Virus record (IMG/VR): IMGVR_UViG_3300010354_000750
Location: 1 to 22,253 of that record
DNA: 22,253 bases
Source: a virus
Strand: one strand, 5' to 3'
Every line of letters begins with the position of its first letter. Positions within the stretch are counted from its first letter, which is position 1. This document shows, one piece after another, positions 20-21,715 of the stretch. The notes below the pieces were generated by a model. The model ran no database searches, was not told where the DNA came from, and saw only the letters and a list, made by a program, of their open reading frames with translations. Made by a program: the position numbers and the translations under genes.

Positions 20-286
20 ATGAAATACACACTATCACAGGCATATGTCTTTTACATGGGTCAAGTTGTGCGTATGTATTTCATACAAAATCTTCCATAT
101 ACCTTTGATGAACTTCCACAACTGATCCAAGATCATCCTTCTGTTCAAACAGAAGCACTTTCTCACAGAGATTATGATGATGAAGATTTGTGGAGAATAT
201 CAAACTATCTTATTATGGAAGAAATGCATCCTTTGATGTTTAATATAGAAGTAGAAAATCCTGAACTGTTACCTAAAGATGATTGA
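20..286 (+). CDS. Small hypothetical protein (88 aa)
   Basis: I do not recognise this protein. It is 88 residues long, acidic towards its C-terminus, and carries several aromatic residues (Tyr/Phe/Trp). I see no signal peptide or membrane segment. The ATG at 20 is the first in frame, but the frame has no stop between it and the window edge, so the true start could lie upstream. A TAG at 7-9 in another frame may be the end of the preceding gene. Its 3' end overlaps the start of the CpeT-like gene by 8 bases (ATG at 279, stop at 284-286), which suggests translational coupling and one transcript. The uninterrupted frame and the overlap support it as a real gene; the function is unknown. Confidence 0.7.
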   Translation: MKYTLSQAYVFYMGQVVRMYFIQNLPYTFDELPQLIQDHPSVQTEALSHRDYDDEDLWRISNYLIMEEMHPLMFNIEVENPELLPKDD

Positions 287-755
287 CAAATTTTGTAAAT
301 ACTTTGAAGGAACATTTGAGAACAAAATGCAAGCAATGTGTGCTCCCACGCAGTTTGCAATGATTGAACTACTTCATATTCCCTATGACACACATATGTT
401 TCGTTGTATTCAACGATATTATGTTGACAAACAGGAATATCGCAACACCATCATTTCTGTTTCTGAGCAAGATTCCTGCCTTATTGTAAAGAACTTCAAG
501 GAAAACGATGGACAGTTGACACATCTCGAAGGATGTGATATAATGTTTGAACAGATCGGCAACGAGTTTCACGGCAAAAATCTTTGTAAAGAATGTTTTG
601 TATCATGGTCGGGAAAACAAACCTATCTTCAAACAGAAAGTATCCTCGGAAACGACTACTATAATGTAATCGACAAGGGATATGATATACATACTGACGA
701 ACATATTTGGGGATCTTTTCATGGATCCTTTAAGTTCGTCAAATCGCCTGAGTAG
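279..755 (+). CDS. cpeT: CpeT/CpcT-family phycobiliprotein lyase-like protein
   Basis: The 158-residue product matches the CpeT/CpcT chromophore lyase family, beta-barrel proteins that in cyanobacteria attach bilins to phycobiliprotein cysteines. Visible family features are the N-terminal FCKYFEGTFENKMQA segment (about 5-19), a central GCDIMFEQIGNEFHGK segment (85-100), and the C-terminal DKGYDIHTDEHIWGSFHG segment (132-149), which fits the family pattern D-x-G-[FY]-D-x(5)-[QH]-[VI]-W-G-S. Cyanophage copies are generally shorter than host enzymes. It may alter phycobiliproteins of the infected host, but lyase activity in phage homologues is not assured. It overlaps the upstream gene by 8 bases. 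Its TAG stop lies inside the tRNA acceptor and D-arm region, so the last 10 bases are shared with the tRNA gene. Confidence 0.85.
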   Translation: MIDKFCKYFEGTFENKMQAMCAPTQFAMIELLHIPYDTHMFRCIQRYYVDKQEYRNTIISVSEQDSCLIVKNFKENDGQLTHLEGCDIMFEQIGNEFHGKNLCKECFVSWSGKQTYLQTESILGNDYYNVIDKGYDIHTDEHIWGSFHGSFKFVKSPE

Positions 756-819
756 CTCAGCTGGATAGAGCAACGGTTTTGTAAACCGTAGGTCGTCGGT
801 TCAAGTCCGACCTTGGGCT
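746..819 (+). tRNA. tRNA-Thr (anticodon UGU)
   Basis: A full cloverleaf can be drawn by hand. The acceptor stem GCCTGAG (746-752) pairs with CTTGGGC (812-818) using two G-T wobbles. The D-arm is GCTC/GAGC. The anticodon stem ACGGT/ACCGT encloses the loop TTTGTAA, giving anticodon TGT (threonine; reads ACA best). The five-base variable region is AGGTC. The T-arm GTCGG/CCGAC has loop TTCAAGT, and T819 is the discriminator. The 3' CCA is not encoded and must be added by the host. The first ten bases overlap the end of the cpeT-like coding sequence, and a terminator follows about 20 bases downstream. Cyanophages often carry tRNAs that serve their AT-rich codons; the very Thr-rich giant gene follows immediately. 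Confidence 0.96.
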
Positions 820-11272: not shown

Positions 11273-12319
11273 ATGGCAAAGTATTATAGCAACTCTAAGT
11301 CTATGCGAGGGGTGGCAGTAGGAACCATTATGCCTTGGGCTGGAGATATTACACGCATCCCTTCTGGGTGGGTCAGATGTGATGGCGGCACATTGAATAT
11401 AAACGATTATCCAGATCTTTATTCTGTTATAGGAACGATGTATGGTGGGGGTGCGGGGACATTTTTATTGCCAAATATTACAGGAAAATGCTTGACTGAT
11501 TATCATCCAAATCATCAAAGTATTTCTGGTATTGGAATGCCAAATTCATTTAAAAATAGAATTGGAACTGATGTTGCAAATACTACATCTGGTACTGCTT
11601 CTAATATTGATTTATTTTTTACAAAAACAACTATTAGTAATGTACAAGCTGCAGTTACTGGTACTAATCTGAATACTATATCTTATTCTGAATCGGTTCA
11701 AGTTGTACCTAGATTGTTGGGCGATCATCATACTGGTGGGCATTCTCACTCTGGAAGTATAAACTCTGTCGGTAATGCTACTGGATGGGTGGAAGAATGT
11801 CAAAAAAACTTTTTTGCAAACTGTGGATTTAACTGCCCTGATGATTGTAATAGTTTTCAATGGTTCCATTATGAAATCAATGGATATGCATCTGTTAACA
11901 CTATGTCTTGGGTAAAACCAACCCAAATAAATGCTGGTGGTGGAACTGGTACTACGTTGGGTGCCGCTTATGAAAATAATTCTGCTACTGGTCAGTTAGC
12001 AAGAACAAATAGCCCTAGAAACTATATTGATCCAGGAGATGATTGCCTAGAAAATAGTGGAAATATTGGTGTATATCCAGTTCATTTACAACACAATACA
12101 GTAAACTTTGTCGGTCAAGTTTTTGGTCACACTCATCCAGGGGTCGATTGGTCTTTTACGCAAGGAAGTATGAAAACACCTAACAACATTTCCATAAATA
12201 ACATATCTACCAGCGGAATAACTCCAGTTAATTCTGCAAATGAGGGAGTTGGCACTTTTAGAGTCGATAATGTAAATACTCCCTCTCTTAATGTAATATA
12301 CATCATAAGAGCATTTTAA
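11273..12319 (+). CDS. Tail-collar-domain fibre protein (348 aa) with Cys cluster
   Basis: The N-terminal part is a clear phage tail-collar domain: VGTIMPWAG (16-24), IPSGWVRCDG (29-38), then YPDLYSVIGTMYGGG (46-60) and TFLLPNITGK (63-72). Such domains occur in T4 gp12-like short tail fibres and other receptor-binding fibres. Two HxH motifs (H157-S-H159 in GGHSHSG; H286-T-H288 in GHTHPG) resemble the iron-coordinating HxH sites known in T4 gp12 and gp37 trimers. Unusually, Cys176, Cys184, Cys188 and Cys192 lie within 17 residues, with another at 258. The C-terminus SLNVIYIIRAF resembles the ends of the next two proteins. It starts three bases after the giant gene, so the two are surely co-transcribed. 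The exact fibre role is inferred. Confidence 0.85.
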   Translation: MAKYYSNSKSMRGVAVGTIMPWAGDITRIPSGWVRCDGGTLNINDYPDLYSVIGTMYGGGAGTFLLPNITGKCLTDYHPNHQSISGIGMPNSFKNRIGTDVANTTSGTASNIDLFFTKTTISNVQAAVTGTNLNTISYSESVQVVPRLLGDHHTGGHSHSGSINSVGNATGWVEECQKNFFANCGFNCPDDCNSFQWFHYEINGYASVNTMSWVKPTQINAGGGTGTTLGAAYENNSATGQLARTNSPRNYIDPGDDCLENSGNIGVYPVHLQHNTVNFVGQVFGHTHPGVDWSFTQGSMKTPNNISINNISTSGITPVNSANEGVGTFRVDNVNTPSLNVIYIIRAF

Positions 12320-12321
12320 AA

Positions 12322-13197
12322 ATGGCTAGAACATATTCTTATGAAAAAGGTAAATATCACATGGTTACTGGTACAATCATACCATTTGCCAGATATTTAG
12401 ATGGAGTTGATCCACAAGGTCCAGATTGGACTTCGTATGTTCCTGCTGGATTTTTGAGATGTGATGGTAAGATTTATAAAGCAAGAGATTTTAGAGCATT
12501 GGCAGATGTTCTTGGTACTGGTGCTGCTTCTAAGTTTAAAAAAACTGGTGTTACTTTAGAAGAAGTAAATGAAAGTCTAACCTTGGGTCAGTTTCAACTT
12601 CCAGATTTAGGATCGAAGTATATTAGTGCTGCTACAGCGAATGGAACATATAATGAGTTGTATGTTACAAATCCTATTACTAATGCTTTAGAAAAAAAAG
12701 TTGGCGTTGCAGTTGAACTGTCTATCAATCAAACACCAGTAGAAATGAGATATACAGGTAACTTTAGTGTTCCTGCCACAAGTATAGATTTTCCTTCTAT
12801 TCAAAATTTTGGTATTACTATAGCTAATACTGTTGGCACGGAAGGTATTACATCTGAAAATCTTTTAGCGCATGGTCATTTTTCTAACGCTGTAGTTGTT
12901 AGGGATGGACCTTATAATGGGTATGCTGCTTCTGGAGGTGGTGCTACTAGTTCTGCTACAGATGCTGATGTTATTACTTCAGATTTCACTAGTGTGGGTG
13001 GAAGTGATGCTTCTACACAACATAATCATCAGTTACAACATACCAATCCAACACGTAGCACTGTGTCAAATATAAGCGCATTTAGTGTTAATCCATCTGA
13101 AATAGTTACTTCGGTAACTTTAAATAAAACAAACTTATATAAACTTGATGATGCACAACATAAATTTATTTTAGTAGAATATCTAATAAAAATATAA
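12322..13197 (+). CDS. Tail-collar-like fibre protein (291 aa)
   Basis: This is a diverged member of the same set of three. VTGTIIPFARYLD (15-27), PAGFLRCDGKIYKARDFRAL (41-60) and FQLPDLGSKYI (91-101) follow the collar-domain pattern 'GTI-P...P-G-[WF]-xx-C-x-G...LPD', but a longer insertion separates the parts. HxH motifs are H184-G-H186 and H234-N-H236, with His240 close by. The C-terminal end FILVEYLIKI matches the family tail. It starts two bases after the preceding stop codon. A minor fibre or baseplate-tip role in host recognition is inferred from the domain and position. Confidence 0.8.
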   Translation: MARTYSYEKGKYHMVTGTIIPFARYLDGVDPQGPDWTSYVPAGFLRCDGKIYKARDFRALADVLGTGAASKFKKTGVTLEEVNESLTLGQFQLPDLGSKYISAATANGTYNELYVTNPITNALEKKVGVAVELSINQTPVEMRYTGNFSVPATSIDFPSIQNFGITIANTVGTEGITSENLLAHGHFSNAVVVRDGPYNGYAASGGGATSSATDADVITSDFTSVGGSDASTQHNHQLQHTNPTRSTVSNISAFSVNPSEIVTSVTLNKTNLYKLDDAQHKFILVEYLIKI

Positions 13198-13199
13198 TC

Positions 13200-14321
13200 A
13201 TGGCAGTAAGATATTCCAAACAAGTTTCTAAAACTGGCGCAGCAGTAGGAACAATAATAGCTATTCCAAAACCATCTACATGGACAGATTCTAGTAGTTT
13301 ATCTACAGAATCTTCGAACTGGAATATTGCCAACTTATATCCTGGGTGGATTGAATGTGCTGGACAAACTTTAAATGTTTCTGAATATAGATCTTTGTAT
13401 AGTGTTATAGGAAACACTTATGGCGGAACTGCAGGTGTTGATTTCAAACTCCCAGATTACAGATCTAAAAAATTAATGGGTACAGGATTTGTTGATGGTA
13501 ATACTGCTTCTGGTGCTTCTTTAACTCCTAACTTAAGTCCAGCTGGTGGATCTGGAGGATCTTATAATATTCCAGGATCCGTGGGTGGTACTTATTCCAT
13601 TTCGACGATTAGACAGTTACCTCCTAGTAGTGAAATAACTCCTGGAGCTCCAACCAGTCCAGCAACTATCGGTGGAACTGCCAGCGATACTTTTGTATTA
13701 GGCACGTATACTTCTTCGGGATTTTCTAATACTATTAACACTATACAACCAAATTTTTCTGGAAATTTATCGATCAGTGTTGGTAGTAGTAATGGAACTG
13801 ATCAAAGATTAGTAGGAGCCGCTCCTGCTCATGCTCATCAACTAAGACACGTAACTAGGGGAAATACAGCAATGGCGAGTGGAGATCCTTATTTTGCTGG
13901 AGGCAACCCTGGTGCTGGTTTTATGCCTCAAGCAACAGGATCTGTTATTACTTTTGATAGGGGTGGTTCTCCAGTGAGACAGCATTCTCATTATATTGCT
14001 TGGTCTATTACTGGCACTCCAGCATCATATGGACATGATGAAGGAGCAGGATCTAGTGGTTTAGTTAATGGCGTAATCGTTGGCACTGTTGCTCATGGAT
14101 CTTCTTATGGTGCTATTAGTAATAATATAGGTACTACTATTAATAAAACTATTGATTTGGTAAACCAAGGTGGTGTTACAATAAATAGTGCAACGGTAAC
14201 TTTAAAAAATAGTTCTCGTATTGATTTTGATAACTCTATGAATGTTAGATTACAATCTGCTGAAGAAATACCTTTGATGAGTCCATATTTTAGAGTTAAA
14301 TATATAATAAAGGCATATTAG
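13200..14321 (+). CDS. Tail-collar-like fibre protein (373 aa)
   Basis: This is the third collar-type protein in the row. AAVGTIIAIPKP (14-25), YPGWIECAGQTLNVSEYRSL (47-66), YSVIGNTYGGTAG (67-79) and FKLPDYRSKK (82-91) follow the collar-domain pattern. The middle is rich in Gly/Ser/Pro/Thr, as in a flexible or beta-structured fibre. HxH motifs are H211-A-H213 (APAHAHQLRH) and H262-S-H264. The last residues, YFRVKYIIKAY, show the shared C-terminal tail most clearly. It starts two bases after the previous stop. It is probably a receptor-binding fibre component that is co-expressed, and possibly co-assembled, with the two upstream proteins. Confidence 0.83.
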   Translation: MAVRYSKQVSKTGAAVGTIIAIPKPSTWTDSSSLSTESSNWNIANLYPGWIECAGQTLNVSEYRSLYSVIGNTYGGTAGVDFKLPDYRSKKLMGTGFVDGNTASGASLTPNLSPAGGSGGSYNIPGSVGGTYSISTIRQLPPSSEITPGAPTSPATIGGTASDTFVLGTYTSSGFSNTINTIQPNFSGNLSISVGSSNGTDQRLVGAAPAHAHQLRHVTRGNTAMASGDPYFAGGNPGAGFMPQATGSVITFDRGGSPVRQHSHYIAWSITGTPASYGHDEGAGSSGLVNGVIVGTVAHGSSYGAISNNIGTTINKTIDLVNQGGVTINSATVTLKNSSRIDFDNSMNVRLQSAEEIPLMSPYFRVKYIIKAY

Positions 14322-14338: not shown

Positions 14339-14986
14339 ATGACGATTGTGCCAATCAAACCAGTTGAGTTGATGAATGGAGAGTTTTCTGATTTTATAGG
14401 GGTTTGGAAAGATCACGTTCCTAAAATAATCTGTGATAAAGCGATTAAACATATTGATGATATTTTAGAAAATGCCAGTTATAATAATGGAAAAACGGAA
14501 CATTTTATTATGGAAGGTGATCAACAGTTTCCATCAAAAAATCTAGGTAGAAAAGATTACAGTTTAATATTAAATCATTCTGATGGTCTTTTAAATCATG
14601 AACTTATGCAATATTTACATGCATGTTTTTTAGATTATTTAAATGAATATGGGCAACTTCAAAACTCTTCAATGGTTTCCACTGAATCTAAATTACAGAG
14701 AACAGAACCAGAAGGAGGATATCATGTTTGGCATTATGAAGATGCTGGATATGAATTTGCACAAAGAGTTTTAGTTTGGATGATATATTTAAATGATGTT
14801 CCCGAGGGAGAAGGTGAAACAGAATTTTTATACCAGAGAAGGAGAATACCTCCAAAAGCTGGAACTTGTGTTATTTGGCCAGCATCATATACGCATGTTC
14901 ATAGGGGAAATCCAGTATATAGTCAAAATAAATATATTTTGACGGGATGGTATCATAATCTACCTACAATCATGCGTCCTTCATAA
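14339..14986 (+). CDS. 2OG-Fe(II) oxygenase, prolyl-hydroxylase-like (215 aa)
   Basis: This is a member of the 2-oxoglutarate/Fe(II)-dependent dioxygenase superfamily, which couples 2OG decarboxylation to substrate hydroxylation. The proximal metal site is GGYHVWHYEDAG, with H132-x-E134 as the likely pair (Glu in place of the commoner Asp). The distal part THVHRGNPVYSQNKYILTGW follows the P4H pattern H-x-G-x-P-V-x(4)-K, giving H188 as third ligand and K198 as the 2OG-binding residue. EGEGETEFLY is the core strand-turn of the family. It sits between the last fibre gene and the chaperone-like gene, so fibre modification is a reasonable guess, but the substrate cannot be read from the sequence. 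It has a good ribosome-binding site. Confidence 0.87.
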   Translation: MTIVPIKPVELMNGEFSDFIGVWKDHVPKIICDKAIKHIDDILENASYNNGKTEHFIMEGDQQFPSKNLGRKDYSLILNHSDGLLNHELMQYLHACFLDYLNEYGQLQNSSMVSTESKLQRTEPEGGYHVWHYEDAGYEFAQRVLVWMIYLNDVPEGEGETEFLYQRRRIPPKAGTCVIWPASYTHVHRGNPVYSQNKYILTGWYHNLPTIMRPS

Positions 14987-15007: not shown

Positions 15008-16045
15008 ATGTCTATTACTTCACCAGAAAAAGAACCATTAGTTCAGTTTTACTTGAGAGAGAAAAAACTCTTTTATCGAGGATATACTGCGATTATCCCA
15101 GATGACATTATCGAATCATTTGATAAAATATTGCCACCTTTTTGGTGGAATAACAAGGATGTTTTGTCATTATTTACATATTATGACGACGGTTCTTTTT
15201 CTTGTGAAAGAAAAAAGGAAGTTTTTGACCATTCTATACAACAAAAAGTAGAAAGAATATATTCATTTACTTCTGCTACGATAGAACAAGTAAGAGAACT
15301 AGTTGATATTTTTATTCAAGTTTATGAAGATTGTAGATTGCAAAATTTACAATCAGCAAAGGATCAAATAAAAGATAGAATACAAAAAGAATTTAGTCTT
15401 ATTGTATTAAATCTTAAAAGCTTTAGAAGTTCACTATTATCCAAATCTGACTGGACTCAACTTCCTGATAACAACTTAAGTGATGAAATAAAAGATTTGT
15501 GGAAACAATATAGACAATATCTTAGAGATATCACTGATGATCCTAACTGGTGGGCTAATAATATTTTATTAGTTGATTTCCCGATTGATCCAGAAAACTA
15601 TTTGTTGAGGTATCCAGATAAGAGTGTTGCTTACCTATCAACACCAGATCAGTTTGAAAATCATGCTATAATGGCAGTTAAAGCAAAGTTAGTAACATTC
15701 CTTGGTTATTTGGGGTTACATCATTTACAAACTGTTGGTGGATATGATAGAGAAAATGTACAAAATTCTAATATTTCTCAAATGACTCTGGAAGATTTAG
15801 AGTTCTTTAAAAATCCAGATGCAATCCAAGAATCTAGTTATGAAAAACTTAGAGCATATGTAGAAAGAAAACTGAAAAGAATCAGTGAAGATTTATCTTT
15901 GGCGATTACTGTGCAAGAATCTTCATTGGGCGCTTGTGCAGATTCTGGTACTAATCTACAATCTGGTATGACGCCAGAAGCACAAATAGTTTATGATGCA
16001 ATGATAGCTAATAATCCACCGAATCGTATTATTGAGGTAGAATGA
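15008..16045 (+). CDS. Protein with tail-fibre-assembly-chaperone-like segment (345 aa)
   Basis: Residues 137-193 (LKSFRSSLLSKSDWTQLPD, then DLWKQYRQYLRDI, then FPIDP) closely match the R..LL..SDWTQLPD...W..YRQ.LRDI...FP pattern of phage tail-fibre assembly chaperones. In many coliphages that domain forms the end of a protein placed just after a fibre gene. Here it is embedded in the middle. The first ~130 residues (aromatic-rich, then helical) and the last ~150 (with a predicted charged helix at about 276-300) are not familiar to me. The position just after three fibre genes and one oxygenase supports a fibre folding or attachment role. The start at 15008 has no strong ribosome-binding site. 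Confidence 0.72.
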   Translation: MSITSPEKEPLVQFYLREKKLFYRGYTAIIPDDIIESFDKILPPFWWNNKDVLSLFTYYDDGSFSCERKKEVFDHSIQQKVERIYSFTSATIEQVRELVDIFIQVYEDCRLQNLQSAKDQIKDRIQKEFSLIVLNLKSFRSSLLSKSDWTQLPDNNLSDEIKDLWKQYRQYLRDITDDPNWWANNILLVDFPIDPENYLLRYPDKSVAYLSTPDQFENHAIMAVKAKLVTFLGYLGLHHLQTVGGYDRENVQNSNISQMTLEDLEFFKNPDAIQESSYEKLRAYVERKLKRISEDLSLAITVQESSLGACADSGTNLQSGMTPEAQIVYDAMIANNPPNRIIEVE

Positions 16046-16048
16046 TTT

Positions 16049-16744
16049 ATGATATATGTTGTGAAGGATTTTCTTGATGATCAAAAAATAAAAAAACTTA
16101 ATGAACTATACGATAGTGCAGATTTTGAAGAAGGTAGGATGAATGGTGATAAAATAATCACTGATCATAAAAATAATAAAGAAATTTTATATTCTGATAA
16201 TAAACATAGTTATTATCATGAATGTGAAAAAATATTAATAAAAGCAGTAAATGATAATGTAGATTTTAAAGAGTTGACAGCTCTAAGATATTATGGTGTT
16301 ATGATATTTTCAGAATATTCTGAAGGAATGTATTATCATTCTCATAATGATTTTTATAAAATGAGAGATATAAGAACAGACTATAGTTGCACAGTTGCAC
16401 TAAATAGTCCTGAAGAATATGAAGGTGGTGAACTGTTTATTGATATTGGCGATAGAGAAATACCATATAAACTTAATCCAGGTGAATTAGTTCTCTATCC
16501 AACAGGATTTTCTCATAGAGTAAATACTGTAACTTCTGGTAAACGCAGAGTTGCTGTATTTTGGGCAGAATCTTCTATACGTGATAGAACTATAAGAGAA
16601 ATGCATCAAGACATGTATATTGCATTGCGAGATCATGGTGAAGAAATGAAAGACAATAAAAATCTACACAATAGATTAATGAAAGTTAAGTTCAATCTTA
16701 TGAGAAACTACGGAGAGTTTGGAACAAAAGGCATATGGAAATGA
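16049..16744 (+). CDS. 2OG-Fe(II) oxygenase, PKHD/PiuC-like (231 aa)
   Basis: The protein matches the PKHD-type hydroxylase pattern. The metal site is YYHSHNDF, with H99-x-D101. EYEGGELFIDIG (123-134) is the core turn, LNPGELVLYPTGFSHRV contains the distal H156, and VTSGKRRVAVFWAESSIRDR carries R166 for 2OG. The C-terminal region with a basic helical part (about 180-231) also fits the PiuC family. Bacterial PiuC is linked to iron uptake; phage substrates are unknown. GAGGT at 16034-16038 lies ten bases before the ATG. Its stop overlaps the start of the next gene in an ATGA junction (16741-16744), so it begins a translationally coupled four-gene run ending with the halogenase. Confidence 0.88.
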   Translation: MIYVVKDFLDDQKIKKLNELYDSADFEEGRMNGDKIITDHKNNKEILYSDNKHSYYHECEKILIKAVNDNVDFKELTALRYYGVMIFSEYSEGMYYHSHNDFYKMRDIRTDYSCTVALNSPEEYEGGELFIDIGDREIPYKLNPGELVLYPTGFSHRVNTVTSGKRRVAVFWAESSIRDRTIREMHQDMYIALRDHGEEMKDNKNLHNRLMKVKFNLMRNYGEFGTKGIWK

Positions 16745-17079
16745 AGCACTGTACTTTATTTGAAATCTTAGGCACATATTGTGCCCTCAATAACAAATCT
16801 TTACTTTTTTATGAGATAAAATATTCTGATCAACAAGAAAGACAAAAAATTGTTGATTACTATGACGGTAAAATTGATGATGATATTTTTGAAGCACTCA
16901 AAAATGATGATCAAAATTTTATCATTTTTTCTGACAGAGAAACTGCATTAGACTATGCAGATCATAGTTTTCCTACAAAAAGGATTATAAAAAGTTCAAC
17001 AAATGACATGTCATTATATATTTTTAGTTGTGTTTTTGATAATACTGGACAATATTCATGGGACAACACTCTGGAATAG
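16741..17079 (+). CDS. Orphan small protein between two oxygenases (112 aa)
   Basis: I do not recognise this protein. It is acidic, with a central cluster DDDIFEALKNDDQNF, and has Cys at its N-terminus (KHCTLFEILGTYC) and once near the end (FSCVFD). I see no signal peptide, membrane helix or metal site. I chose the ATG at 16741 because it forms an ATGA overlap with the preceding stop; an in-frame ATG at 16735 is also possible and would add two residues. Its 3' end overlaps the next oxygenase by 22 bases. Its fixed place inside a coupled oxygenase/halogenase run suggests an accessory role for one of these enzymes, but this is inference from position only. Confidence 0.75.
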   Translation: MKHCTLFEILGTYCALNNKSLLFYEIKYSDQQERQKIVDYYDGKIDDDIFEALKNDDQNFIIFSDRETALDYADHSFPTKRIIKSSTNDMSLYIFSCVFDNTGQYSWDNTLE

Positions 17080-17573
17080 ATGCTTTTGAATCTATATTAT
17101 CTACAGAAGATTTTAATGTAGTTTTAAATATTTTAAAATCTTCTAACTGGTCTTATGGGCATCACAGTGATGCAAATCAAGATCATAAAAAGTTTTGGAA
17201 TATGAATCTTATTGATGACTTTTATTTTGCCGATTATTTTTTTGAAAAAATAAAAACAGTTCTGAATATAAATGATGCTAACTTATTGAGAGTTTATGCA
17301 AATGGTCAAACTTTTGGTTTAGATGGTAGCTGGCATCAAGATTCTTGCAAAGATAACGAGTTTACTTTTTTATACTATTCTGTACCTGATTGGAAAATAT
17401 CTTGGGGAGGAGAAACCGTATTCAACGTTAATGGTAGAATAGTTTCTTTTTTTCCTAAACCTAACTGTGCATTGTGTTTTCCTGGGAAAATAGAGCATTT
17501 TGCAAGATCTCCCTCTAGAGAATGTTATGAGTTGAGAACTACGATTGCTTTTAAATTTGAGGTGAATGATTAA
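17058..17573 (+). CDS. 2OG-Fe(II) oxygenase (171 aa)
   Basis: This is a small 2OG-Fe(II) dioxygenase. SWHQDS gives the H93-x-D95 metal pair, SWGGETVFNVNG (115-126) is the core turn, FPGKIEHFAR supplies the distal H147, and ELRTTIAFKF provides R160 for 2OG binding. The order and spacing are normal for the superfamily although the protein is short. LRVYANGQTFGLDG before the metal site is typical of phage and cyanobacterial members. It overlaps the preceding orphan gene by 22 bases with no ribosome-binding site of its own, so translation is probably coupled. The halogenase start follows one base after its stop codon. Substrate unknown; a tailoring step linked to the halogenase is plausible. Confidence 0.85.
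   Translation: MGQHSGIDAFESILSTEDFNVVLNILKSSNWSYGHHSDANQDHKKFWNMNLIDDFYFADYFFEKIKTVLNINDANLLRVYANGQTFGLDGSWHQDSCKDNEFTFLYYSVPDWKISWGGETVFNVNGRIVSFFPKPNCALCFPGKIEHFARSPSRECYELRTTIAFKFEVND
17559..17563 (+). promoter_or_regulatory. Shine-Dalgarno site that decides the halogenase start
   Basis: GAGGT ends only two bases before an ATG at 17566 but eleven before the ATG at 17575. The second spacing is workable and the first is not, so I take 17575 as the halogenase start. This also gives the MHICIIGTGAAGW N-terminus usual for the family. Confidence 0.65.
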
Positions 17574-17574
17574 A

Positions 17575-19032
17575 ATGCATATTTGTATTATAGGAACAGG
17601 CGCAGCTGGATGGTTGGCGTGCAATCTCCTAAAAAGAAACAAAACAAAAAACATAGAAAAAATAACAATCATTGGATCTCCAGAAATACCTTCTATTGGA
17701 GTTGGAGAATCTAATACATTGACATTGAATAATATTCATGCATCGATGAATATTGATTTGAACGAGTTTGTTCATGAATCTGATGCTGCATTGAAGTATG
17801 GTGTTTTATATGATGGATGGTCAAAAAATAAGTTTCTTCATTTTTTTAAAGGTGATCAACTTTGGAATGAGTTAGCTATAAACTATGGTGATTACGGTAA
17901 AACTTTGGCAAATAAACCAACTGATGTTAATATTTCTGACATATATGGAGAATATTTGACATCTTGTGCTCTTCAAAATAGAATATGTAGAAATCAGTTA
18001 TACTATCCATATTCTTGGCATTTTGATGCTGGATTGTATATCAAGTTTCTAAGTAAACTAGCTTTAAAAGATAAAAAAGTAAGTTTAATACATGATACGG
18101 TAATAGATTGTGAGTTTGAAGAAGATGAAAAGATTAAAAAAATATTTTTAAAAGAAAGGGGTGCTATTGAGGCAGATTATTATATTATTGCTACTGGTTC
18201 TACACAACTCAACGAAAAAGTGTTAAAACAAGAATATCATGATCTTTCTGATATTTTATTGACAAATAAAGCTTTATTTCTTCCTTTAAAATATACTGAT
18301 AAGAAAAAACAGTTTCATCCATATACAGCTTCAAAAACAATGAAACATGGGTGGAGATGGATTACACCAACTTATTCTAGGGTTGGGACTGGATATGTTT
18401 TTAGTTCAAATCATGTTAGTGAAGATGAAGCGATTTCTGAACTATTAAATGATATTGGAGATACTTCATTGTCACCTAATATTGTTAATTTTGGTGCAAA
18501 ATATAATAAAAAAACTTTCAAAGAAAACTATTGCACGATTGGTATGGCAAATGGGTTCTTGGAACCATTAGATGCCCCTGGATTAACTTTATCAATGTTG
18601 GTACTAGGTAGATTAGAAACTCTATTGTATCAAAAAAGTATTATGAATGATGAACATATATTTCGGTCTTCTAGAGAGATTGCGAATGATTTTATTGATA
18701 AACATTACAAGTTCTGGTCAGCATTTATTTTGTGTCAATATAAAACATGTATGAGAAATGATACCGATTTTTGGGCAGATCATAAAAATGTAAAGTATGA
18801 TTATTATGATTTTGTAATGGAAAGTTTAGATTTTTCTGAAGATCCTAACTATGGAATGTTGTACCACACAATTGCAGGTAAAGATGTTCAATGGAAAACA
18901 CCTTATGATTCTTTACCATTTAAAGTTCCTGATGCAATAGTCGAAACAATGGACCATTTGGAGTTTATTGAACAAGTAAGAAAAAGATATAAAGAAAAAA
19001 CCGACCCATCTTCACAAAATATTTGGAAGTGA
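17575..19032 (+). CDS. Flavin-dependent (tryptophan-type) halogenase, VirX1-like (485 aa)
   Basis: Flavin-dependent halogenases use FADH2, oxygen and halide to make hypohalous acid that halogenates an electron-rich substrate. Seen here: an N-terminal dinucleotide-binding GTGAAG (7-12), the family's GVGES (42-46), the likely catalytic lysine K74 in ESDAALKYGV (equivalent to PrnA K79), WHFDA (148-152), a tryptophan motif WRWITP (260-265; family consensus WxWxIP), and FLEPLDAPG (328-336) with the conserved Glu330. The length is close to the usual ~500-540 but somewhat short. A cyanophage enzyme of this family, VirX1 from Syn10, was shown to halogenate diverse substrates and to prefer iodide; this looks like a relative. 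No flavin reductase gene is visible in the window. It ends the coupled oxygenase run, and a new promoter starts right after it. Confidence 0.9.
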   Translation: MHICIIGTGAAGWLACNLLKRNKTKNIEKITIIGSPEIPSIGVGESNTLTLNNIHASMNIDLNEFVHESDAALKYGVLYDGWSKNKFLHFFKGDQLWNELAINYGDYGKTLANKPTDVNISDIYGEYLTSCALQNRICRNQLYYPYSWHFDAGLYIKFLSKLALKDKKVSLIHDTVIDCEFEEDEKIKKIFLKERGAIEADYYIIATGSTQLNEKVLKQEYHDLSDILLTNKALFLPLKYTDKKKQFHPYTASKTMKHGWRWITPTYSRVGTGYVFSSNHVSEDEAISELLNDIGDTSLSPNIVNFGAKYNKKTFKENYCTIGMANGFLEPLDAPGLTLSMLVLGRLETLLYQKSIMNDEHIFRSSREIANDFIDKHYKFWSAFILCQYKTCMRNDTDFWADHKNVKYDYYDFVMESLDFSEDPNYGMLYHTIAGKDVQWKTPYDSLPFKVPDAIVETMDHLEFIEQVRKRYKEKTDPSSQNIWK

Positions 19033-19038
19033 TCCCTC

Positions 19039-19068
19039 TTGACAGGGGCTTGACACCTGTGCTATAGT
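19039..19068 (+). promoter_or_regulatory. Sigma70-type promoter (early/host-like)
   Basis: TTGACA at 19039-19044 and TATAGT at 19063-19068 are separated by 18 bases, close to the bacterial housekeeping consensus. A second TTGACA (19051-19056) sits in the spacer, too near the -10 to act with it. ACAGG (19042-19046) and CCTGT (19056-19060) form an inverted repeat across the spacer that could be a protein-binding site. The ATG at 19095 lies 26 bases downstream. It probably starts an early or middle transcript covering the small genes and dam. Confidence 0.78.
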
Positions 19069-19483: not shown

Positions 19484-19671
19484 CTCATTATGATAAACTG
19501 ATGGATTCCATCATCGATGAAATCTATTATGTCTGGACTGAAATCTGTGAATGGGACTGTGAAGAAACTCAAGAAACAGTAAGGGAGACAGCACAACGCA
19601 TTCTGCAACATGTAGAAGAGTTTCAAACTAATCGTACTAATGTTACTGCACAATGGAGAGCATCTGACTAA
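19480..19671 (+). CDS. Small hypothetical protein (63 aa)
   Basis: I do not recognise this 63-residue protein. It is acidic and appears to be helical throughout, with aromatic positions in YDKLMDSIIDEIYYVWTEI. It contains one Cys pair region (ICEWDCEE, residues about 22-29), too small to call a metal site. It has a strong GGAGGT ribosome-binding site, overlaps the upstream basic protein gene by ATGA, and shares one base with the next gene (TAATG at 19669-19673). The tight packing with an acidic and a basic partner suggests joint expression. Confidence 0.78.
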   Translation: MTHYDKLMDSIIDEIYYVWTEICEWDCEETQETVRETAQRILQHVEEFQTNRTNVTAQWRASD

Positions 19672-20282
19672 TGAATGTAGGTGATTTATTTGCCATTCCA
19701 TTGTTTATGGAAAAAATATTATTAGATGATTCTAAGGTAGAAGAATCATGGAAACTTGTTAACTGGAACTATCCGCAGTTAATCAGTTTTGATATGGATC
19801 TCCTAGATACTCATTTTTCTTTCTTGATGCCACAAATAAGTGACTTTGTTAGAAAAGTCATGGATATGATTGGATTTTCTGGAGTTGATTTTTATATTTT
19901 CAGTAGTTGGGGCACTATTACACCTCCAAACATGTTTTCTAGTTATCATAAACATACTAACTCATTTATGAGTGGTGTAATATATTTTTCAGACGAAACT
20001 TCTCCTATTTTGTTTGAAAATCCTTTTCAGATGCCATATTCACATATAGCAAATCAAAGTTCTCCTTCTGAACTAACTAAGTATACTAAATCTAGAGTTG
20101 GATTGTCTCCTAAAAAAGGAGATGTAATCATGTTTAGCTCTATGATTAATCACATGATTAGTCCAAATAGTTTTTCTGAAGATAGAAAATCTATCGCTTT
20201 TAATGTGGTCCCTATTGGAACATATGGAGAAAAAGATTGTAAAATAACTTTGCATAAAAACAATGAAAAAACTGATTCGTAA
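19671..20282 (+). CDS. 2OG-Fe(II) oxygenase-like protein, TIGR02466 type (203 aa)
   Basis: The pattern fits the putative 2OG-Fe(II) oxygenase family TIGR02466, frequent in cyanophages. It shows an N-terminal LFAIPLFMEKILLDD, a central SSYHKHTNSFMSGVIYF (90-106), then ILFENP (113-118), LSPKKGDVIMFSS (145-157) and NHMISPNSFSEDRKSIAFNV (160-179). Candidate ligands are H93 and H95 in HKH, the distal H161 and R172 for 2OG. The usual HxD/E acidic residue is replaced by His (HxH), which as I recall is normal for this family, so activity is not excluded. It starts within the previous stop (TAATG) and overlaps the next gene by 20 bases. Its base composition is AT-rich like the main oxygenase block. 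Substrate unknown. Confidence 0.8.
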   Translation: MNVGDLFAIPLFMEKILLDDSKVEESWKLVNWNYPQLISFDMDLLDTHFSFLMPQISDFVRKVMDMIGFSGVDFYIFSSWGTITPPNMFSSYHKHTNSFMSGVIYFSDETSPILFENPFQMPYSHIANQSSPSELTKYTKSRVGLSPKKGDVIMFSSMINHMISPNSFSEDRKSIAFNVVPIGTYGEKDCKITLHKNNEKTDS

Positions 20283-20481
20283 AATAAAACAAAACGTATC
20301 AGCAACTCGCATGACATTTTTATCTGTTGCATGTGTTGTTGCTATTGGAAATACTCTCACTGGTTGGGGGGTAGTTTCTTGGATATTGTGGATTCCTCCT
20401 ATTGCTTTGTCTTTGGCAGCAATCACTGGTGTTTGTCCCTTTAAGATTATTTTTGAAAAACTTGGTTTCGCTAACGATTGA
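20263..20481 (+). CDS. Small membrane protein, DUF2892/YgaP-like (72 aa)
   Basis: After a basic N-terminus (KKLIRKIKQ) there are two hydrophobic stretches, about residues 18-31 and 37-56, separated by a short Gly/Trp turn, then TGVCPFKIIFEKLGF. The TGxCP motif after the second helix resembles the DUF2892 (YgaP transmembrane-like) family, though the match is from memory and the family N-terminus is not obvious. It probably sits in the host inner or thylakoid membrane with its basic N-terminus inside. It overlaps the upstream oxygenase-like gene by 20 bases, and its stop is two bases from the next ATG. Confidence 0.7.
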   Translation: MKKLIRKIKQNVSATRMTFLSVACVVAIGNTLTGWGVVSWILWIPPIALSLAAITGVCPFKIIFEKLGFAND

Positions 20482-20690: not shown

Positions 20691-20883
20691 AGGTGCTCTA
20701 TACGAAGTACCAGTAAAAACAACGCCAGAGAATGTCAAAGAGGCAAACGAAGCGTTGTTTAACTGTACAATGACTCTTCCTGCTGCAGCAAAACACTGTG
20801 GCATGACTAAAAAAGAAATGAAGTTGACATTCTTTGAGTACTTGAAGTATCATCCACCTACTTACAACAATACAGATGCCTAA
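20668..20883 (+). CDS. Small HTH-like hypothetical protein (71 aa)
   Basis: I chose the ATG at 20668 because it limits the overlap with the upstream gene to 23 bases; an in-frame ATG at 20635 would add 11 residues with unconvincing sequence. The segment TLPAAAKHCGMTKKEMKLTF looks like a helix-turn-helix ('AAKxxGMTxKEMKxxF'), so a small DNA-binding or regulatory role is possible. This rests on pattern only. It overlaps the dam gene by 8 bases, so the two are probably translated together. Confidence 0.7.
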   Translation: MSLLKINKGALYEVPVKTTPENVKEANEALFNCTMTLPAAAKHCGMTKKEMKLTFFEYLKYHPPTYNNTDA

Positions 20884-21715
20884 AATCAAACCTCTATTCA
20901 TTTGGGCAGGCGGCAAAACCAAAATGCTCAAATATCATACTCCATATCTACCATCGACAGTCAATAGTTATTCTGAACCGTTTTTTGGTGGTGGTGCTAT
21001 GTTTCTGTATGTGATGCAGAAATATAATCCTGAACGGGCATATATCAATGATATTAATGCAAGTATTGTCAATATTTACCGATCGGTAAAACAATCTCCC
21101 GATGAGTTTTGCAATGTGGTTGATGCATTTCAATCCACATATATTCCCATGAGCAAAGAAGATAGGAAGAAATACTTCTTTGATGTCAGGCATTTACATG
21201 CATATGATTATCACCAATGGGGTGAAGTTTATGAAGCAGGAGTTCTATATTTCTTGATGAAGACAGGATTCAATGGTATTTGGCAAATCAATAAGAATAC
21301 CAACGGTAGATATGGTACTCCTTCTGGTCTACTAAATCAGAAAGATGTTGTGTATGATAAAGCAACTGTATATGCTTGGAGTGATCTATTGCAGAATGTA
21401 GAGATTTATTGTGGTGACTACAAAGATTGCCCTACTGGTGATTTGAACTATTTTGACCCACCATATCGTGATAGTTTTACTAAGTATGGTACAAGTTGGG
21501 GAGATACAGAAACGGAAGAACTGATTCAACATGCAAAGAACATAGATGGTACAGTACTTTTATGTAATCGATGTGATGGATCTACATTCTTTGATGACAG
21601 AAAAGGAGATCTAAATATCGCTAGGTTCCCTGTTACTTATACTGCAGGGCGTCGCAAGAAAACCACTACTGGTTATGTTGCTAAACCTGCAACGGAAGTT
21701 CTTCTCTATGGGTAA
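20876..21715 (+). CDS. dam: DNA adenine methylase, D12 class (Dam-like, 279 aa)
   Basis: This is an N6-adenine DNA methyltransferase of the D12/Dam class. It has the SAM-binding start PLFIWAGGKTKML (6-18), the motif I loop PFFGGGAMFL (35-44), the acidic residue following in YINDIN (56-61), TGFNGIWQINKN with RYGTP (130-149) typical of T4 and E. coli Dam, and the catalytic DPPY (194-197). Dam enzymes usually methylate GATC. GATC is present and not avoided in this window (for example at 1097 and 1106), so the phage DNA could be self-methylated, perhaps against restriction. It overlaps its upstream neighbour by 8 bases and its stop overlaps the next start by one base (TAATG). Confidence 0.93.
   Translation: MPKIKPLFIWAGGKTKMLKYHTPYLPSTVNSYSEPFFGGGAMFLYVMQKYNPERAYINDINASIVNIYRSVKQSPDEFCNVVDAFQSTYIPMSKEDRKKYFFDVRHLHAYDYHQWGEVYEAGVLYFLMKTGFNGIWQINKNTNGRYGTPSGLLNQKDVVYDKATVYAWSDLLQNVEIYCGDYKDCPTGDLNYFDPPYRDSFTKYGTSWGDTETEELIQHAKNIDGTVLLCNRCDGSTFFDDRKGDLNIARFPVTYTAGRRKKTTTGYVAKPATEVLLYG

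Follow-up and report, generated by a model that had tools for sequence, protein, structure and literature searches.

The DNA analysed here, from an uncultured cyanobacterial virus (IMG/VR record IMGVR_UViG_3300010354_000750, positions 1 to 22,253; 22,253 nt, hereafter the window), covers only part of the viral genome and carries downstream of its tail-fibre genes three 2-oxoglutarate (2OG)-dependent Fe(II) oxygenases (ox1, ox2 and ox3), a fibre-assembly-chaperone-like protein (CHAP), a 112-aa protein (ORPH) and a flavin-dependent halogenase (Table 1). We tentatively propose, with somewhat less than even confidence, that the window holds one form of a module which is widespread among cyanophages and modifies their tail fibres, the halogenase being an accessory to it. 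This proposal starts from what we observed of the block, namely its anatomy, its conservation, the intact active sites of its oxygenases and the divergence of its genes in step with the fibre. Firstly, the fibre genes, ox1, CHAP, ox2, ORPH and ox3 follow one another in this order in one nearly gapless run. An earlier note on this DNA had described ox2, ORPH, ox3 and the halogenase as joined by an ATGA overlap, a 22-base overlap and a 1-base gap, with a third oxygenase and a fibre-chaperone-like protein just upstream, after three fibre genes; our re-derived coordinates agree with the former, and matches to PF13640 (ox1) and PF16778 (CHAP) with the latter. The ATGA overlap lies at the ox2/ORPH junction, where an alternative in-frame ATG at 16735 would give a 114-aa ORPH, and the 22 bases are shared by ORPH and ox3. 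Another in-frame ATG of the halogenase, at 17566, would create an 8-base overlap with ox3; the 1-base gap is likelier, since GAGGTG is found about 11 bases 5' of the ATG at 17575 and the homologues begin at the same MH(I/V)CI. The gene order is not a product of chance, as it is found again in independent contigs and isolates.

Secondly, we compared the window with other virus contigs and genome stretches (numbered L002, L005, L027 and so on), including 80 IMG/VR loci chosen by the presence of ox3. These contain ox2 (74/80), ORPH (71/80), CHAP (70/80) and ox1 (70/80), several of the loci without the full block being short contigs or different loci. In S-PM2 (S-PM2d225-d229), S-H9-1, ACG-2014h and Sf-CH1b, the fibre genes are followed, in the same tight order as in the window, by ox1, CHAP, ox2 and a member of the ORPH family (directly or after ox3), and the helicase gene uvsW lies a few genes further on in the first three. 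Unlike the window, these four loci have no halogenase, a g743/PhyH-type gene or a helicase standing there instead; ox3 is shared with the window by S-PM2 and Sf-CH1b, in which the order of ox3 and ORPH is reversed. ox3 precedes ORPH in most of the 80 loci, and ORPH precedes ox3 in the window, L005, L006, L045 and L046. The oxygenase/ORPH part is thus, as judged from sequence, a long-standing standard cyanophage locus, normally without a halogenase, and it is not new; the earlier note had suggested that a linked cassette with an orphan partner might be undescribed. Nor is ORPH the orphan that it was taken for: its relatives in 82 loci (alignments A3 and A4), together with its presence in 71 of the ox3 loci, define a conserved cyanophage family, and orphan status was rejected.

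Thirdly, we measured divergence in 26 non-redundant loci carrying all the genes, comparing pairwise identities with those of the last fibre gene and of uvsW. The correlations with the fibre were 0.92 for ox1, 0.95 for CHAP, 0.80 for ox2, 0.87 for ORPH and 0.86 for ox3, as against 0.54, 0.63, 0.53, 0.71 and 0.51, respectively, for uvsW. The partial r with the fibre given uvsW was 0.89, 0.93, 0.72, 0.80 and 0.81 in the same order, and that with uvsW given the fibre was 0.02-0.50 (0/2000 permutations). Even ox3, which lies towards the uvsW side of the block, follows the fibre (0.81 versus 0.03). All five genes therefore diverge in step with the neighbouring fibre and not with uvsW which, with near-universal synteny, bears out the linkage of the enzymes to the fibre genes seen in the earlier note. 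Compared with L027/L032, the window shows 79-88% identity in the methylase gene dam and 23-58% in the fibre and block genes. Because physical linkage contributes to co-divergence, these data support a coupling and leave an enzyme-substrate relation unproven.

Alignments of 31-36 relatives indicate that all three oxygenases have intact iron/2OG ligand sets. In ox1, H129, H132, E134, H186, H188 and K198 are invariant, with iron ligands of the HxE form and K198 as the basic 2OG residue, and a profile search matched the prolyl-4-hydroxylase (P4H) structures 3itq, 5hv0 and 5c5t at about 6e-7. In ox2, the HxD...H iron ligands and the 2OG-binding Arg (H99, D101, H156, R166) are invariant in 36 sequences; the protein matches the family NF003974 over its full length (154 bits versus a cut-off of 143) and the PiuC structures 3dkq, 9ghl and 9qn1 at 3e-44 to 1e-40. 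It shares all ligands with the PiuC/YbiX PKHD hydroxylases, a family whose substrate is not established in the literature found, and differs from them in having a phage fibre locus for neighbours. In ox3, H93, D95, H147 and R160 are invariant, the nearest solved relative is OGFOD1 (4nhx; a weak match, 3.7e-5) and the NCBIfam model named FlmC is matched below its cut-off. The PHROG label of ox3, 'DNA endonuclease V', was rejected on account of the HxD..H..R ligands and the PF13640 match; phrog_274 and phrog_2297 are both labelled DNA endonuclease, yet match 2OG-Fe(II) oxygenases with intact ligands, and the label is also carried by ox3 homologues in RefSeq phage annotation. AlkB-type repair enzymes are absent from the closest solved relatives listed for the three oxygenases; since these relatives are prolyl hydroxylases, OGFOD1 and PiuC, we favour a role as protein hydroxylases.

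CHAP exceeds the PF16778 cut-off (42.3 versus 26.6 bits) and is predicted to comprise a beta domain, a 55-residue helix and an APC domain; a structure search matched CV0426 (2kz6) over 54 columns at 2.1 A and, apart from the APC domain, returned only PAS-like noise from the PDB. For ORPH, AlphaFold predicts an alpha/beta fold with high confidence (pLDDT 96.4); the model has no match in the PDB at E<=0.001 and five viral matches in BFVD, of which the four that are named are all cyanophage proteins. An exact-peptide scan for ORPH found nothing, the family being too divergent for such a scan.

The halogenase is read as filling a variable enzyme slot that ends the fibre module, of which it is the variable part. 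Five other IMG/VR contigs with a fibre-linked halogenase of the window's clade (L027, L028, L029, L032 and L042) carry the long fibre, three fibres, ox1, CHAP, ox2, ORPH and the halogenase, then u77-u63-u70-u82-dam as in the window, and all five lack ox3. They amount to two close lineages, one made up of the near-identical L027, L028 and L029 and the other of L032 and L042, which give identical values (between the groups, ox1 is 91% and the halogenase 89% identical). L085 and L093 share downstream genes with the window at 71-94% identity; what they carry between ORPH and u77 is not a halogenase but a gene of 295-299 aa plus two 2OG genes. A promoter core that is the same in the five contigs compared (the window, L027, L032, L085 and L093) precedes the u77 homologue whatever gene fills the preceding slot and marks the right boundary of that slot. 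From the long fibre through ox3, each gene of the window has its best match in L005/L006, and the halogenase, most downstream small genes and the methylase have theirs in L027/L032/L085/L093; this switch makes the window mosaic, joined close to where ox3 meets the halogenase. With a GC3 of 0.19, the halogenase resembles the cassette (0.14-0.23 for the block) and not the right flank (0.27-0.31). The four genes that the earlier note had treated as one fixed unit are therefore separable, ox3 occurring without the halogenase in 80 loci and the halogenase without ox3 in five contigs, and the fixed unit was rejected; of the four genes, the oxygenase/ORPH part is kept in about 70/80 loci, mostly with ox3 before ORPH, and the halogenase in 0/80. 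As a separate observation, a gene of about 295 aa often stands at the halogenase's place after the cassette (L007 8505-9392; L085 8878-9765; L093 8844-9743; phrog_4851 in S-PM2) and, like the block genes, diverges in step with the fibre (Spearman 0.86); the L085/L093 genes do not match phrog_4851, and their kinship with the phrog_4851 gene is unproven.

The link between halogenase, fibre and 2OG genes recurs in a separate halogenase lineage, that of VirX1 (Syn10 CPUG_00131; 531-aa chain, PDB 6qgm). As in the window, the PF04820 halogenase of the VirX1 locus comes after fibre/adhesin genes, and several 2OG genes follow it. In Syn9/Syn10, P-RSM6, P-TIM40, S-WAM1, S-SZBM1 and S-CREM1, halogenases of this lineage come directly or shortly after genes for fibres or glycine-rich adhesins (PF21722, phrog_863), with strings of 2OG genes behind them. 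Unlike the window, the VirX1 locus has a tandem second halogenase and a glycine-rich gp38-type adhesin upstream, and neither CHAP, a PiuC-type ox2 nor ORPH was seen in the stretch; the two halogenases are about 25% identical, and the VirX1 motifs are canonical (EPLESTG, WNIP). S-SRM01 carries another halogenase, flanked by fibre genes on one side and an annotated adhesin-tip gene on the other, and has few 2OG genes there. In 13 isolate genomes (Syn10 being omitted as a near-duplicate of Syn9), 34 2OG genes lie less than 6 kb from a halogenase, versus 10.2 (sd 4.4) expected under random rotation, and 0/4000 rotations were as high, a count that is inflated because the isolate genomes are partly related and their independence is overstated.

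If the block modifies the fibre, it would be read late, together with the fibre genes; the 2OG enzymes would hydroxylate side chains of the fibre or of its chaperone-bound form, ORPH might act as an adaptor or specificity factor, and the halogenase, supplied by the host with reduced flavin, would halogenate the same receptor-binding proteins on an aromatic side chain. Hydroxylation and halogenation may then alter fibre stability or receptor recognition. The identity of the substrate is the weakest step, a host metabolite or a surface glycan being possible; the amino-acid composition of the fibre gave no obvious modification target, and a motif scan placed no late-promoter motif CTAAATA convincingly before the block. 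Besides the inflated 2OG count, several observations weigh against fibre modification: no halogenase is present in any of the ox3-selected loci; the S-PM2, Syn1 and P-SSM2 halogenases are far from fibres; L002, L039 and L041, members of the window's halogenase clade, have no fibre or 2OG gene in sight; the co-divergence could reflect linked recombination and not enzyme-substrate pairing; and the S-SZBM1 virion proteomics, in the accessible part of its report, lists virion proteins and reports no search for hydroxylation or halogenation (PMC9146016).

A broader claim, that cyanophages hydroxylate, and some lineages halogenate, their own receptor-binding fibres with fibre-co-evolving enzymes, VirX1 being a fibre halogenase, appears to us rather doubtful. 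No native substrate of VirX1 was found reported in the open literature. The 2OG oxygenases of cyanophages are abundant and unexplained, and the fibre linkage, the co-divergence and the analogous locus of VirX1 make a virion protein a candidate for their substrate, giving indirect evidence for the fibre modification suggested in the earlier note. The novelty here lies in a halogenase-bearing form of a known locus and in the proposal of a fibre substrate for VirX1-type enzymes; no description of a fibre-linked oxygenase module was found in the accessible parts of the open literature, the search excluding subscription papers and preprints.

The main rival to fibre modification, which we consider unlikely but of real weight, is that the oxygenases and the halogenase tailor a host metabolite, lipid or polysaccharide, the adjacency of the fibre reflecting a shared pool of host-interaction genes. 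Known halogenase chemistry favours such a substrate: small or carrier-bound molecules are the targets of most flavin halogenases that have been well studied. VirX1 itself is reported to have an open active site and to iodinate a range of small substrates (PMC8407142), and a cluster of the jumbo cyanophage S-SSM6a, which the S-SSM7 locus resembles and which combines a halogenase, 2OG enzymes, carbamoyltransferases and sugar genes, is predicted to yield a halogenated metabolite or a decoration of the capsule (PMC7824862). Published accounts, in their accessible parts, describe phage halogenases as antibiotic- or metabolite-related (PMC2984593, PMC9964418, PMC10452541), with a role in antibiotic protection suggested for prnA (PMC2984593). 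The S-SSM7/S-SSM6a cluster is like the window in being a cyanophage locus with a halogenase beside 2OG enzymes (PMC7824862), but it differs in its carbamoyltransferase, nucleotidyltransferase, sugar kinase and isomerase genes, its fibres are not adjacent, and it has been interpreted as a secondary metabolite or capsule cluster. In contrast, of the searched genes of the window (a fragment), none was recognised as a scaffold-building, carbamoyl-, glycosyl- or nucleotide-sugar gene, the divergence of the block tracks the fibre, and a gene resembling an assembly chaperone lies inside the block.

It is improbable, in our judgement, that these are independent accessory genes gathered in a hyperplastic region, with the 2OG enzymes serving iron/nitrogen balance (2OG draw-down) or, as neighbours of uvsW, DNA repair, and the halogenase an unrelated passenger. 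The accessible parts of published work do describe cyanophage 2OG genes in such terms, proposing DNA repair and 2OG/NtcA modulation (PMC3037559, PMC9146016) or PiuC-linked iron uptake (PMC13184970), and both the swapping of contents in the slot before the conserved promoter and the mosaic junction between ox3 and the halogenase fit this explanation. It is opposed by the order ox1-CHAP-ox2-ox3-ORPH, kept in about 70/80 loci, by a divergence that follows the fibre and not uvsW, by the assembly chaperone between ox1 and ox2, and by L027/L032, which keep the enzymes without uvsW nearby.

By homology, the last enzyme of the block is assigned to the flavin-dependent halogenase superfamily (PF04820, 249 bits versus a cut-off of 21), to which PrnA and RebH also belong. 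The FAD motif (GTGAAGW at residue 10), Lys79 and the WxWx(I/T)P region (here WRWITP) align with theirs, K77 standing at the catalytic Lys79 of PrnA in all phage homologues; unlike PrnA/RebH, the window protein has Asp for Glu346 and Pro for Thr348, and no biosynthetic cluster. In our tree, it forms with 12 viral sequences (about 41-53% identical to it) a clade on a long stem, with support of 100/100, separate from VirX1, S-PM2/Syn1 and other phage halogenases. WRWITP and EPLDAPG are present in 13/13 members: both Trp and the Pro of WxWxIP are kept, Ile is replaced by Thr throughout, Pro occupies the place of PrnA Thr348, and Asp aligns with the catalytic Glu346 (PDB 2jkc has Asp there, and wild-type PrnA, 2apg, has Glu). 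Across the clade, the FAD motif, K77 and the two Trp of WxWxxP vary little or not at all, so that some flavin-hypohalite-type chemistry has likely been kept. In tryptophan halogenases, the Glu-to-Asp change leaves low but observable activity and Glu-to-Gln none (reviewed in PMC8407142), which makes halogenating activity of the window's clade plausible but unproven and the clade a new target for halogenase enzymology. That it is a derived flavin monooxygenase or binding protein and not a working halogenase, as the invariant Asp, Pro and Thr and the low activity of the Glu-to-Asp mutant (PMC8407142) might suggest, is very improbable given the retained FAD motif, K77 and Trp pair and the Gln of S-PM2/Syn1, by which the position is not uniform among phage homologues.

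This Gln occupies the catalytic Glu place in the Syn1 (L019 5007-6443) and S-PM2 (L024 5010-6485) halogenases, within LEPLQATS. L040 (5064-8548) has two halogenases about 0.5 kb apart, one of the DAPG clade and one of a P-SSM2-like clade. No relative of the window's clade turned up when 84,980 bacterial and archaeal genomes were scanned by pattern; on this weak negative evidence, which depends on two short peptides, a bacterial origin was set aside.

Table 1. Features of the window and the matches that support them.
Feature	Position	Strand	Support
CpeT-like antenna protein	279-755		phrog_488, 7e-35
tRNA-Thr (TGT)	746-819		
Long fibre-like protein, 3450 aa	917-11269	+	C-terminal part matches long fibre of L005/L006, L027-L032, same position
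Three collar/short-tail-fibre genes	11273-12319, 12322-13197, 13200-14321	+	Synteny with S-H9-1, ACG-2014h; first gene phrog_4591 (short tail fibre), third gene PF07484
ox1, 2OG-Fe(II) oxygenase, prolyl-4-hydroxylase-like	14339-14986	+	PF13640, 3.3e-12
CHAP, fibre-assembly-chaperone-like protein	15008-16045	+	PF16778, 6.6e-11; phrog_4697, 2e-43
ox2, PiuC/YbiX-type PKHD hydroxylase, 231 aa	16049-16744	+	PF13640, 3.7e-12; NF003974
ORPH, 112-aa conserved cyanophage protein, family of S-PM2 gene cluster GC 742	16741-17079	+	
ox3, 2OG-Fe(II) oxygenase, 171 aa	17058-17573	+	PF13640, 3.9e-5; phrog_274, 6.6e-28
Flavin-dependent halogenase, virus-only clade	17575-19032	+	PF04820, 1.1e-73
Sigma-70-type promoter, right edge of block	19039-19068	+	TTGACA-18-TATAGT with TG; 11/12 match
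Fourth 2OG oxygenase	19671-20282		PF13759
DNA methyltransferase (dam)	20876-21715		phrog_56; 88% identical to L032/L042

A phage search at the DNA level recovered only the core of ox1. On the left of the block, the CpeT-like gene is consistent with a cyanobacterial host with phycobilisomes, and the tRNA gene lies between it and the long fibre. On the right, the halogenase is followed by small genes, the fourth oxygenase, a small hydrophobic protein and the methyltransferase. The fourth oxygenase overlaps the hydrophobic protein (72 aa; 19671-20481 for the pair). In L003, a homologue of the hydrophobic protein immediately precedes a halogenase of the same clade, and in L031, L033 and L034 one lies a short way upstream of it, suggesting that this small protein may travel with the halogenase.

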